Below are positions 17,070 to 47,491 of a stretch of DNA of 50,964 nucleotides, one piece after another (the stretch's first letter is position 1; every line of letters starts with the position of its first letter). Source of the stretch: an uncultured Candidatus Actinomarina sp. (lineage in GTDB: Bacteria; Actinomycetota; Acidimicrobiia; Actinomarinales; Actinomarinaceae); NCBI GenBank assembly GCA_902580215.1, contig CACHJT010000008.1, positions 1 to 50,964 on the forward strand. Reading direction: 5' to 3'. Both the position numbers and the translations under genes were made by a program. The notes under the pieces were generated by a model, which was not told the DNA's origin, did no database searches, and saw nothing but the letters and a program-made list of their open reading frames with translations.

Positions 17070-17540
17070 TTACCTAGTTAAATTTAAATAACATGGTTTT
17101 TCGTTGTATATGATTTCTTCTAAATACATCTCTTCTTGAGTTTCCGGTTTAAAAATTTTAATATTTTTAAAATTCGACATTACTTTTTCGTCATCAGTCG
17201 CGTAATGTGAAAATCCTAATGCTCCATAATCTTCATCCCTACCACTACCTACAATTTTTATAGGTATGCATTCATGATCAATTAAGTTTCTTATAAACTC
17301 ATAAGGTCTGTAGAGTATGAACGGCGTTATTGAATAAATAATTGGTATTTTCCCTTCCATTGCTAAACCTGCTGCCATCCCTACAATTAGTTGCTCTGCA
17401 GCACCAGGATTAATATATCTTTCAGGAAACTCCTCTTTTAATTTATCAAACAAACCATACCCTACATCTCCGACTATTAAATAAACGTTTTCATCTTTTG
17501 ACATAATTTTAAATAATTCATCAGCAAACTCTCTTCTCAT
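17070..17540 (-). CDS. Transketolase-like subunit 2 (pyrimidine-binding domain only)
   Basis: This 156-residue protein has GDVGYG, the NPGAAEQ segment with the TPP-activating Glu (E49), a MAAGLAMEGKIPIIYSIT stretch and GSGRDEDYGALGFSHY, all of the transketolase middle (Pyr) domain. The third, C-terminal transketolase domain is absent, making it about half the usual split-subunit length. It overlaps the N-terminal subunit gene by 4 bases (ATGA). Together with the RfbH-like gene upstream, it could add a two-carbon ketol unit to a deoxy-keto sugar. Confidence 0.75.
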   Translation of the reverse strand: MRREFADELFKIMSKDENVYLIVGDVGYGLFDKLKEEFPERYINPGAAEQLIVGMAAGLAMEGKIPIIYSITPFILYRPYEFIRNLIDHECIPIKIVGSGRDEDYGALGFSHYATDDEKVMSNFKNIKIFKPETQEEMYLEEIIYNEKPCYLNLTR

Positions 17541-18172
17541 AATGAATCCAAAGCCTTTAAATATTGCTCTTCAGTAAAGTTAACGTAGTGGGCCGATAGT
17601 CCGGTTAATCCGTATATCTCAACTGTTGTTTTTATAAATTTAACATTTGGGAGAAATGATTTTAATCTTTTTTCTAGATACACTAGGTCAACTGAATCAT
17701 ATGCGGCCCAGCCATTTGCATTTACATATATATGAATGTTTTTAAGGTTATTTTCATTAATATACTTTAAAGACTCCCAAACTGAACCCTCAGAACATTC
17801 TCCATCAGATATCATGCAATATACATCTTTATTCTCATCTGCAATAGCTCTTCCAACAGCAACCGTAATTCCCATACCAAGACTTCCTGTTGAGCAGTGG
17901 ACTTTCTTTTGTTCATTTCTTTTTGGGTGCTCACCCATTTCATCAAGTAAGTGTTGTGCGTTAAATCCAAAATACTTCTCAAGGACAACATATAATGCCA
18001 CTGCAGCATGACCATTTGAAAGTATGAAAATGTCATTTTCTTTCATATTTGAATATATTTCATCAATTGTTTCTATTGAAGAAAAATAGCTTCCAAGGTG
18101 ATGCAGTTTATTTTTATATGAAATTTCTAATAGTCTTCGAATTAATTGTTTATCAGTTTGAGTTTTTTTCAT
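17537..18172 (-). CDS. Transketolase-like subunit 1 (TPP pyrophosphate-binding domain)
   Basis: This 211-residue protein has SNGHAA (52-57), CSTGSLGMG (93-101), SDGECSEGSVWESL (122-135) and an Asn at about 151. These match the transketolase N-terminal domain, with Ser-Asp-Gly in place of the usual Gly-Asp-Gly at the ThDP/metal site. It is shorter than the usual roughly 270-residue split subunit. It overlaps the RfbH gene by 4 bases upstream and subunit 2 by 4 bases downstream, so the three form one translationally coupled unit. Confidence 0.78.
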   Translation of the reverse strand: MKKTQTDKQLIRRLLEISYKNKLHHLGSYFSSIETIDEIYSNMKENDIFILSNGHAAVALYVVLEKYFGFNAQHLLDEMGEHPKRNEQKKVHCSTGSLGMGITVAVGRAIADENKDVYCMISDGECSEGSVWESLKYINENNLKNIHIYVNANGWAAYDSVDLVYLEKRLKSFLPNVKFIKTTVEIYGLTGLSAHYVNFTEEQYLKALDSL

Positions 18173-43963: not shown

Positions 43964-45193
43964 TTAATCACTATCTAATATTTGATTTTGATAGTCCCAA
44001 TATTCACATAGTTCATTATCTTGTGCATCCACTTCATCAATTGCTATTGGGTTTCCTTTTGCTATAGCTTTAGTGACAACATTGTCTTCTGCAATTCCGA
44101 TTGGGAGAAGGCCCTTTGATGATGATGTCTTCTGTGCTTTTCCATATATATAGTCTCCCCCAATTGAACCAAGGTTTGTGCCTGGTTCAATGTCTTGTTT
44201 AGCATGTGCAACAACTTCAACGTTCCAGCTTTGTGCACTCAACTTGGAATACTTTTCCAACATAATGTGTCTTATTGTTCTTGGTATTTCAAGGCTTGTT
44301 AAATGATAGGGTCTGGCTAAAGTCCAGTAGGGACCTTTGCCCATTTTTAGATACTCCATTTCATAATTTACATAATCATCCTCGGAATAGATTACTGCAA
44401 AAACACCTGGAGCAATTCCAAAAGCGAAATCAACAACTTGTGATTCATCCAGTAAGCCTCCATCTTTTTTGGGGATGTAGAACTGATTTATATTTTCATA
44501 TGTCGCCTCTATACCATGCATGCCATCAATATCTATATTGAAACCCAGAAAATTAGCGAGTGCAGCCATCTCGACCATCGTTTTAGTTCCATCAACAAAA
44601 CTGGTTAACATTTTTGGATTCATTTTTTTTAAAGATGCTTCTTTTGTTAATGAACTCGGAGTAGCAAATGTATCAAATGGGTTATTTTTACCTTTTCCAA
44701 TTGATATAACGTCAAAAGACAACTCTCTAGCAAAGTTATATAGATCAAGAGCAGCTACGGGTTCATCGCCATCAGCAACTGTCACTATTGCATTGTTTTT
44801 TTCTGCTTCTTTTCTTAAAGCTAAGCCGATAGTTGCCTCAGTTTCCACGTTTAATAAAATTAAATTAATACCTCGATTTAAAACATTCTTAGCAACAAGA
44901 GCCCCTGCAGCAGGTGTACCTGTTGCTTCAATTACAATGTCCAGTTCAACATTATCCAGACCTGCAATACTGTCAGAACAAAGAGGCTCATTTTCTTTGT
45001 GTTTTTTATACCTATCAGAAGCAATATCAAGTTGTTTTTGATTCCTATCAATAATACATACGAGGTCTACTCCATACATTTTTGATACTTGGGCTACAAT
45101 TCCTTGTCCCATTTGACCTGCTCCAACAAGCCCTACTTTTACATTTTCATTTCGATCTTCTATAAAATTTTTAAATTTATCTAATTGGTTCAT
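43964..45193 (-). CDS. SAF-domain oxidoreductase, DRL-type DXP reductoisomerase candidate
   Basis: This is a 409-residue protein. Residues 19-160 are a Rossmann domain (VGLVGAGQMGQGIVAQV) like homoserine dehydrogenase. The middle catalytic part has GKGKNNPFDTFATP and SFVDGTKTMVEMAALANFLGF. Residues about 325-400 form a SAF domain (AKQDIEPGTNLGSIGG, GLLPIGIAEDN). This architecture is that of COG4091, the family to which the DXR-like enzyme DRL of Brucella belongs; DRL makes MEP from DXP. Position directly next to ispD (2-base gap), which uses MEP, strongly favours that role. Other COG4091 members may act on different polyols, so biochemistry is needed for certainty. Confidence 0.7.
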   Translation of the reverse strand: MNQLDKFKNFIEDRNENVKVGLVGAGQMGQGIVAQVSKMYGVDLVCIIDRNQKQLDIASDRYKKHKENEPLCSDSIAGLDNVELDIVIEATGTPAAGALVAKNVLNRGINLILLNVETEATIGLALRKEAEKNNAIVTVADGDEPVAALDLYNFARELSFDVISIGKGKNNPFDTFATPSSLTKEASLKKMNPKMLTSFVDGTKTMVEMAALANFLGFNIDIDGMHGIEATYENINQFYIPKKDGGLLDESQVVDFAFGIAPGVFAVIYSEDDYVNYEMEYLKMGKGPYWTLARPYHLTSLEIPRTIRHIMLEKYSKLSAQSWNVEVVAHAKQDIEPGTNLGSIGGDYIYGKAQKTSSSKGLLPIGIAEDNVVTKAIAKGNPIAIDEVDAQDNELCEYWDYQNQILDSD

Positions 45194-45195
45194 TT

Positions 45196-45864
45196 TTAAA
45201 TAACGGCTTTCTCAATAATTTCTAAATCACTTTTATAAGTAATTTTTAAGTTATTCTCCTCACCTCTAACTACTTGGGTTTCATATTTATTAAAGTTGAA
45301 CATGCTTTCTGTTGTGTCAACCATACCAGTAATATTATTTTTTGATAGAAATGAATAACACTCAAACAATTCTTTATATTTATAAATTTGAGGTGTCTGA
45401 ATATCTACAATTTTTTTATGAGTAACAATTTCATCATTTTCTATATCATAAAATTTACTGTTGTCTAAGTAAGGCGCTGCAGATCCATGTTCTTTCGCTG
45501 TATTAACTAAGCTTGTTAAAAGCTCAGAGGACATAAAAGAACGAGCGGCATCGTGTATTGCAATCAAACAATTATCTGAAGCTCTATCTTGTAAATACTG
45601 AAGTGCACAGTACTCACTTTCTTGTCTCGAATCTCCACCGAGTATAATTGAAACACTTTGATGTTCAGTGAAAAGTTTTTCTAATGCCGACTTATTTAAC
45701 TTAGAAGAAACTATCAATACTTCATCAATTTCATTATTGTCTAAAAAGGTTTCAACAGGATATAAGACTAGCTCTTTGCCATTTACTTTATAAAAAAGTT
45801 TGTTTACTTCTGCATCAAAGCGGGTGCTATCACCTGCTGCAAGTATTACGCCATAAGTTTTCAA
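45196..45864 (-). CDS. ispD: IspD, 2-C-methyl-D-erythritol 4-phosphate cytidylyltransferase
   Basis: This 222-residue protein has GVILAAGDSTRFDAEVNKLF with the nucleotide-binding turn, ILGGDSRQESE, IAIHDAARSFMS, a DIQTPQIY segment and NLKITYKSDLEIIE. These are the motifs of IspD, which converts MEP and CTP to CDP-methylerythritol. TarI (ribitol-5-phosphate) is the nearest alternative. The adjacent DRL-like gene fits IspD best. It follows ptsI by 7 bases. Confidence 0.85.
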   Translation of the reverse strand: MKTYGVILAAGDSTRFDAEVNKLFYKVNGKELVLYPVETFLDNNEIDEVLIVSSKLNKSALEKLFTEHQSVSIILGGDSRQESEYCALQYLQDRASDNCLIAIHDAARSFMSSELLTSLVNTAKEHGSAAPYLDNSKFYDIENDEIVTHKKIVDIQTPQIYKYKELFECYSFLSKNNITGMVDTTESMFNFNKYETQVVRGEENNLKITYKSDLEIIEKAVI

Positions 45865-45871
45865 TATAAAA

Positions 45872-47491
45872 CTATATTATGAACTTTCGTACACTTTGTG
45901 AATTTTTTTGAGATAGTATTTCGTCTATATTTATATTTTTCAATGCTTCTTTTGCTTTTAGCAAGGATGAGACTATTGCTGGAGCTTGTGATGGAGCAAG
46001 GCTAAATATTCTTAACCCCAAAAGATAAAGCATATAAGCTCCTTCTGTATCTGAGGCCATATCACCACAGACTGATACTTCAATATCATTTTGATTAGCA
46101 GTATTGATGATGTTGTGTAATAGCTTTAAAAAAGAAGGATTTAGAGCATCATGATATTTGTTTAAAGATGTAATTCCTCTATCAGCTGCAAATGAATACT
46201 GAAGTAAATCATTAGTACCAATTGAGAAAAAATCAACCTCATCGATATATATTTCTGGAGATATAGCAACTGACGGAGTTTCTACCATAATCCCTAATGT
46301 GGGAATTTCGGCTCCTAATTTGTCTGCTACAGAAACCACCACTTCTTTTGCTTCTTGAAAGTCTTCAAGAGTTGCAACCATTGGAAACATTATTTTTACT
46401 TTTCCACTAATATTCGAATTCAAAATTGAACTGATTTGAGTTTCAAAAAGTTTTCTGTTTTCTAAAGTAAGCCTGACCCCTCTTACTCCTAAAAATGGGT
46501 TCTCCTCCTGAGGAAGATTTAAGTAATCAACTTGTTTGTCTCCACCTATATCTAATGTTCTATAAACAATAGTTTCCTCAAACTTATCATTAAGTAGGTT
46601 GTTTGAATTAATTAAGCTATCTAATTCAGGTTCTGTTGACTCTTCTATATAAAGAAATTCGGAACGAAACAAACCTATTGATTTTATTAATGAATCGTTA
46701 AAACTCTTAATCTCGTCCGTTGAGCCAATGTTTGCCCTAAGTTCAACATCTAATTTATTCAAGTTTTCTTCTGTGTAGTTTTCAAGCTGTTTAGTTATGG
46801 TTGCTTTATACTCTTCAACAATTTTTAATGAGCTTTCATCAGGATTAATTGTTAATTCCCCAGTTGAACCATTGATTATAACTTCTTCAACATTATCTAT
46901 ATCAAAGTCAGCAATACTAATCCCTAAAATACATGGAATGCCATAATTTTTAGCCACAATTACAGCATGAGAAGTTGGACCACCTTCTTTTACAACAAAT
47001 CCTTTAACAAGATTTAAATTCATCGATGACGTTTCATTTGGTGTTAGCTCATTTGCAAAGATGACTTGAGGAACATCTGCATCAAACTCTACAGATATAT
47101 CTTGGAGGGTAAATATTAATTCTTTACCGATTGCTTCAATATCCTCTGATCTTTGTTGAAAATACTCATCATCCATTTGTTTAAATACTTCTGATTGTTC
47201 CAAAAATACGTCATAAATTTTTTCTAAGTTTGCTTCATTTAGTTCGGATAAACTATTTATTAATTCAGGATCATTAAGAATTAAAATATATGCCTCTAGA
47301 ACTTCTGCTTCTATTTCTCGAGATGATGAATTATATTTCTCAATAATACTTTTATATTTTGCAGTTAATTCTTTTATTCCTTCATCAAGTGAGATAGTTG
47401 CAGCAATAGAAAAATCCAGCGTTCTTTCTATGTTTATTGGCTTTCCAGTATTAACTCCAGGGGATACTCCAGTGCCTTGTAAAACTCTCAT
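45872..47491 (-). CDS. ptsI: PTS enzyme I (phosphoenolpyruvate-protein phosphotransferase)
   Basis: This 539-residue protein has GGPTSHAVIVAKNYGIPCILG with the phosphorylated His175, FRSEFLYIE, a TLDIGGDKQVDYL segment, NPFLGVRG and a FFSIGTNDLLQYSFAADR stretch. It takes phosphate from PEP and passes it to HPr. It is slightly shorter than the usual 570 residues. TAACTT lies 6 bases before the ATG. The ispD and DRL-like genes follow on the same strand, an unexpected pairing with enzyme I. Confidence 0.93.
   Translation of the reverse strand: MRVLQGTGVSPGVNTGKPINIERTLDFSIAATISLDEGIKELTAKYKSIIEKYNSSSREIEAEVLEAYILILNDPELINSLSELNEANLEKIYDVFLEQSEVFKQMDDEYFQQRSEDIEAIGKELIFTLQDISVEFDADVPQVIFANELTPNETSSMNLNLVKGFVVKEGGPTSHAVIVAKNYGIPCILGISIADFDIDNVEEVIINGSTGELTINPDESSLKIVEEYKATITKQLENYTEENLNKLDVELRANIGSTDEIKSFNDSLIKSIGLFRSEFLYIEESTEPELDSLINSNNLLNDKFEETIVYRTLDIGGDKQVDYLNLPQEENPFLGVRGVRLTLENRKLFETQISSILNSNISGKVKIMFPMVATLEDFQEAKEVVVSVADKLGAEIPTLGIMVETPSVAISPEIYIDEVDFFSIGTNDLLQYSFAADRGITSLNKYHDALNPSFLKLLHNIINTANQNDIEVSVCGDMASDTEGAYMLYLLGLRIFSLAPSQAPAIVSSLLKAKEALKNINIDEILSQKNSQSVRKFII

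Follow-up and report, generated by a model that had tools for sequence, protein, structure and literature searches.

A type II DXP reductoisomerase beside ispD in Candidatus Actinomarina and its apparent link to predicted methylerythritol-consuming gene sets

The window, by which we mean the whole 50,964-nucleotide stretch of DNA analyzed here, has a GC content of 30.8% and comes from a 1.0-Mb, 87%-complete genome of an uncultured Candidatus Actinomarina sp. Three of its genes, ptsI, ispD, and drl, follow one another on the minus strand (Table 1), with gaps of 7 bp between ptsI and ispD and 2 bp between ispD and drl. An earlier sequence-only reading had placed a 409-residue ORF 2 bases from ispD, with both genes following ptsI, and these coordinates reproduce. 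Next after drl is a yjbQ/UPF0047 gene and beyond it a redoxin gene in the opposite direction, past which lie genes for a mannitol-type PTS (IIC, IIB, and IIA), a mannitol-1-phosphate dehydrogenase-like gene, and an HPr-looking gene. The size, base composition, and PTS content of the genome agree with Candidatus Actinomarina, in whose published genomes PTS genes for mannitol and sorbitol occur (PMC7771536). Besides its Pfam match, the window IspD scores 146 bits with TIGR00453, below that model's cut-off of 181, and it is the sole full IspD-type match in its own genome, the second match being partial (37 bits). The window belongs to one of two clades of the genus discussed below (clade 1), and ispD and drl are neighbors in 10/10 clade-1 loci drawn; the pairing is not chance.

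Table 1. Genes and domain of the drl locus, in window coordinates
Feature	Position	Strand	Evidence
drl, type II DXP reductoisomerase (DXR-II/DRL), 409 aa	43964..45193	-	DRL_cat, PDB 3UPY, fold, trees
DRL catalytic domain, residues 142-303, holding K167, K169, T205, H226, R294, Y296	44285..44770	-	PF21135 match
ispD, MEP cytidylyltransferase, 222 aa	45196..45864	-	PF01128 118 bits; tree
ptsI, PTS enzyme I, opens the gene run; found in related operons too	45872..47491	-	TIGR01417 389 bits; synteny

The drl product matches PF21135 (DRL_cat) at 196 bits and the Rossmann family NAD_binding_3 (PF03447) at 36.6 bits, and neither of the canonical DXR domains, PF02670 and PF08436, was found in it. When the PDB was searched with its sequence, Brucella abortus DRL (3UPY) was the only match (E = 2.7e-75). 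An AlphaFold model (pLDDT 95) superposes on full-length 3UPY with a TM of 0.93 and an rmsd of 2.6 Å, with 33% identity across the structural alignment, and the next, unrelated structure reaches a TM of 0.42. The architecture proposed from sequence, a Rossmann domain with a C-terminal SAF domain, is thus borne out for its first half; Pfam does not detect SAF in the window protein, although the model superposes on the full length of Brucella DRL and Pfam detects the domain in 24 of 25 aligned members.

Carretero-Paulet et al. distinguish DXR-II, in which MEP formation has been demonstrated for 11 members, from DLO1 and DLO2, four representatives of which gave no complementation; in DXR-II they implicate K191, K193, and T229 in substrate and fosmidomycin binding and R320 and Y322 in the dimer interface, with H250 and G121 as typical residues (PMC3847144). 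Window K167, K169, T205, H226, R294, and Y296 correspond to Brucella K191, K193, T229, H250, R320, and Y322, and all seven key residues (with window G97) are kept in the window protein and in five other clade-1 proteins that were checked, while they are mostly not kept in DLO-like proteins (n = 10). From these data we regard it as confirmed, by family, fold, and key residues, that the product of the window gene is a type II DXP reductoisomerase, although its enzyme activity and direction are inferred only. The DRL-like identity first suggested is therefore upheld, since Brucella DRL is the best match in both sequence and fold and the residues and tree concur. The same reading had set the enzyme apart from DXR, the fosmidomycin target; this stands as to DXR-II identity, and as to the drug the contrast is merely one of degree because DXR-II is also inhibited, though less strongly (PMC3847144).

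A canonical dxr elsewhere in the genome would have undercut the proposal that DRL provides an alternative entry to the MEP pathway. We found none with PF02670 or PF08436 in the window genome, and PF08436 matches in 0 of 42 genus genomes, as compared with 75 of 77 sister genomes of the class. With DXR-I absent from 42/42, gaps in draft genomes are not a ready explanation. DRL is present in 33 of the 42. Farther along the pathway, IspF occurs in 24 of 26 genus genomes searched and IspH in 23 of 35, the window genome being included in both counts, and IspG occurs in 21 of 25 but is missing from the window's own assembly. The mevalonate pathway was rejected for lack of any HMG-CoA reductase among 35 genus genomes. 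DRL is very probably the organism's only MEP-forming enzyme: it would convert DXP and NADPH to MEP, which the adjacent ispD product would turn into CDP-methylerythritol for isoprenoid synthesis, both steps being inferred without enzyme data.

DXS could not be found either. With TIGR00204, 0 of 42 genus genomes pass the cut-off, compared with 44 of 77 sister genomes, and PF13292 gives weak matches only in the genus. Since no DXS was found, the DXP supply of the organism is unexplained. Enzymes of DXS type that remain in the window genome are a transketolase, a fused PDH-type E1, and a split transketolase-like pair. The pair (window 17070-18172, minus strand) consists of a 211-aa N-part and a 156-aa Pyr-part and is set in a sugar/surface-polysaccharide gene block. 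We rejected it as a genus-wide DXS on account of this setting, its lack of a C-terminal domain, and the absence of a counterpart in most relatives. The 640-aa enzyme was rejected as a hidden DXS because it is a transketolase (TIGR00232, 671-696 bits), and the weak PF13292 matches beside drl in relatives are not a split DXS but E1alpha (PF00676, 272 bits).

It is about an even call whether another TPP enzyme, or a RibB-like one, stands in for DXS and supplies DXP, a reading that would complement our best explanation. In E. coli, mutant aceE (PDH E1) and mutant ribB make DXP and substitute for DXS (PMC3424233), and the genus does have a fused PDH-type E1 and a transketolase. About 32 of the 77 sister genomes (Acidimicrobiia-like) also lack DXS. 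Nearly all of these retain DXR-I, and they possess later MEP-pathway genes, so unidentified sources of DXP may be widespread in the class. Against such a substitute, no candidate has test data behind it, and in the complete DXS-less sister genome G044 the transketolase is the sole PF02779 enzyme. The surroundings of dxr and ispG in a complete DXS-less genome, where a DXS substitute was sought, hold only housekeeping or unrelated genes.

Compared with the DXR-II of Brucella abortus (3UPL, 3UPY; PMC3847144), the window enzyme is alike in fold, in its substrate and dimer residues, and in the reliance on DXR-II without DXR-I. It differs in its limited sequence identity, in having no DXS, in lying beside ispD, in a SAF domain that Pfam cannot detect, and in its actinobacterial lineage, for which no DXR-II appears in the 2013 survey. 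Compared with canonical DXR (DXR-I, IspC), the expected reaction is the same but the catalytic domain is unrelated. The proposed alternative entry is supported by the missing DXR-I and by tree, residues, and fold, with the activity itself inferred. It is an incomplete account in two respects: DXS is missing from the genus, and DXR-II often sits in a catabolic-looking operon.

Such an operon is found within the genus. In clade 2, the locus reads ptsI-ispD-gutM-EIIC-EIIB (in two pieces)-EIIA-drl-E1alpha-E1beta-lipoyl protein. Across 119 genomes, 16/16 EII-GUT genes lie within about 3 kb of DRL, two of them in distant families that also have DXR-I. For a wider scan we used one genome per species from 84,980 species and kept the best 80 of at least 572 confirmed relatives. 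Among the matches listed, 43 DXR-II loci have 4.5 kb or more on each side; of these, 25 carry a Gut PTS, and 19 of those 25 also carry E1alpha/E1beta, whereas among 8 DLO-type loci the number is 0 (Fisher p = 0.004, which is only a guide because the loci are related). Other DXR-II loci among these matches have kinase, SIS-domain, and Zn-alcohol dehydrogenase genes, or housekeeping genes. The operon-bearing lineages among them include Chloroflexota, Bacillota, Spirochaetota, and Actinomycetota, and plasmids add the Alphaproteobacteria.

Rhizobium K15/93 has gutM-IIC-IIB-IIA-ptsP-regulator-DXRII-E1a-E1b-E2, and Terrarubrum is similar. On Agrobacterium pAtCFBP7129b, an ABC transporter and a PfkB kinase replace the PTS and are followed by DXRII-E1a-E1b-E2-lpdA-lipA, an arrangement resembled by that of Sinorhizobium americanum with a sugar kinase; several such gene sets are on rhizobial and Agrobacterium plasmids. 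Two species in the published list fit as well, the DXR-II of NGR234 adjoining E1a-E1b and a Listeria copy adjoining gutM-IIC-IIB-IIA. The window protein shares a DXR-II clade with the proteins of Gut-PTS/E1 operons in Rhizobium K15/93, Nocardia amamiensis, and clade 2, and the Nocardia, Amycolatopsis, and clade 2 operons have IspD nearby, as in the window, but the window lineage itself is without the PTS, E1, and lipoyl genes.

Some loci have other contents. On a Ligilactobacillus salivarius plasmid (L214, 6971-14545), DXR-II and a Gut PTS occur with a fructose-6-phosphate-aldolase-type gene and a transketolase in place of the E1 complex, possibly an alternative way to cleave DXP. In L169, L174, L181, L193, and L200, DXR-II lies by weak E1-like genes that resemble split transketolase halves, and four of the five, L181 being the exception, also contain a member of a PfkB-type kinase cluster. 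Mixes of FGGY kinase, SIS-domain protein, RpiR regulator, and Zn-alcohol dehydrogenase surround DXR-II in L157-L160, L183, L191, L194, L201, L204, and L206, apparently a further sugar or polyol context.

The E1alpha genes that neighbor DXR-II fall mostly into one clade (support 84) made up of 41 DXR-II neighbors and one C. difficile plasmid gene, C. difficile being in the 2013 list of species with DXR-II (PMC3847144). Strict monophyly of all DXR-II-near E1alpha was rejected, since one of them, a second copy some 7 kb from DXR-II, clusters with AcoA-like genes. The operons of relatives resemble acetoin dehydrogenase (AcoA/AcoB) in their E1alpha/E1beta/E2/E3 organization, but the GHFEGD and GF.HLY motifs of AcoA-like proteins are replaced in the operon-type E1alpha by GHSKSD and GT.HLS, and the window has no such E1alpha. 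The C. difficile plasmid (L219, 5995-10930) carries an MFS transporter, a sugar-binding regulator, and E1a-E1b-E2-lpdA of the DXR-II-linked type, with no DXR-II in the stretch read.

We interpret these operons as follows. 2-C-Methylerythritol would be imported and phosphorylated to MEP, by the PTS or by a transporter with a kinase; DXR-II, presumed to run in reverse, would oxidize MEP to DXP; and the E1/lipoyl complex would act as a "DXP dehydrogenase" yielding acetyl-CoA and glyceraldehyde-3-phosphate. If the substrates of DXR-II are unchanged, few other chemistries are compatible with the combination of uptake and phosphorylation, DXR-II, and a TPP/lipoyl complex. Deoxyxylulose as the imported sugar is disfavored because DXR-II would then be unneeded. 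As a 1-deoxyketose, DXP suits acetoin-dehydrogenase chemistry, since formation of 1-deoxyketoses has been reported for both PDH and acetoin dehydrogenase (Yokota and Sasajima 1986, of which we know what is cited in PMC3424233). Methylerythritol catabolism is thus the most likely substrate and direction for the operon, inferred in the absence of growth or enzyme data. We found nothing relevant on methylerythritol catabolism in the literature within our scope, which left out most subscription papers, and the predicted methylerythritol-consuming gene set, which is widespread, is apparently undescribed. On balance we lean, by a modest degree, toward a primarily catabolic role for DXR-II in at least five phyla, from 2-C-methyl-D-erythritol through MEP and DXP to acetyl-CoA and glyceraldehyde-3-phosphate with a GHSKSD-type E1alpha, from which the window genus recruited its drl and ispD in replacement of its own dxr and ispD.

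Could DXR-II be mainly a salvage or catabolic enzyme in the window organism too, with imported methylerythritol giving MEP that feeds IspD directly and is also oxidized to DXP? DXS would then be unneeded, in keeping with its absence, and the idea draws on the sister-clade operon, which joins a Gut-type PTS, E1alpha/E1beta, IspD, and drl, and on the closeness of every EII-GUT gene found to DRL. We nevertheless consider it unlikely. The uptake/phosphorylation and E1alpha/E1beta genes of the methylerythritol operon are absent from the window locus and from its genome: there is no Gut-type PTS, the PTS near drl is of mannitol type and accompanied by mannitol-1-phosphate dehydrogenase, and no separate E1alpha/E1beta pair of the operon kind stands beside the three DXS-type enzymes named above.

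Trees of DXR-II and DLO proteins were built with 52 and 115 rows, with references from Brucella, NGR234, and Listeria and with DLO references recognized by their tree position and context and not by a label in the literature. In the 52-row tree, the window protein is inside DXR-II, where clade 2, Nocardia, Amycolatopsis, Tamaricihabitans, and another Pseudonocardiaceae share its starred set (100/99), and the 115-row tree concurs in placing it in the DXR-II clade apart from DLO. Grouping with COG4091 members of different function, which would have refuted the original proposal, is therefore not what we observe. The sister group of clade 1 is clade 2 (94/87, not starred), and the stem leading to clade 1 is long, at 1.7 changes per site, so a functional shift is possible. 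Although COG4091 includes paralogues that fail complementation (PMC3847144) and the clade-1 branch is long, it is highly improbable that the window protein only resembles DRL while being a DLO-type oxidoreductase with another function, given its starred placement, its retained key residues, the adjoining ispD, and a fit 19.8 log units worse (p-AU 0.049) when clade 1 is constrained with DLO rows. The DLO-type relatives L215, L216, and L218 lie by rfb/nucleotide-sugar genes, or by a TRAP transporter and a quinol-monooxygenase-like gene, settings that hint at DLO functions.

IspD bears on the origin of the locus. The genus IspD groups with the operon-linked IspD of an Acidimicrobiales MAG (93/88) and not with the chromosomal IspD of the class (99/97), although AU tests (p = 0.06 and 0.10) are not decisive. 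The clade 1 locus lacks the PTS, E1, and lipoyl genes. The simplest story that we infer from tree and synteny has drl and ispD coming from a catabolic operon and displacing the canonical genes, after which clade 1 would have shed the catabolic part, so that ptsI-ispD-drl would be the remnant of an operon of the type that the sister clade still has intact. The long clade-1 stem may reflect this change of role, and drl and its locus seem to descend from a methylerythritol-consumption gene set.

We conclude, with a probability of roughly 0.8, that DXR-II is the sole enzyme converting DXP to MEP and feeding IspD in this organism, at a locus derived from an operon; the missing DXS in the genus, the long clade-1 stem, the IspG missing here, and the lack of enzyme data count against this. 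As an enzyme, the window protein is a further member of DXR-II; as a pathway entry, with no DXS, no DXR-I, and a probably operon-derived pair, it is new. Chloroflexus has the mevalonate pathway only and yet a complementation-positive DXR-II, and Finegoldia and Anaerococcus have DXR-II with neither pathway (PMC3847144). If true, the catabolic reading would explain this published puzzle of DXR-II in genera without the MEP pathway. It would also predict a degradation route for methylerythritol. This compound is a plant metabolite and a product of atmospheric isoprene oxidation. For Candidatus Actinomarina, our best explanation, if true, would mean that a streamlined marine genus makes isoprenoids without either canonical entry enzyme.
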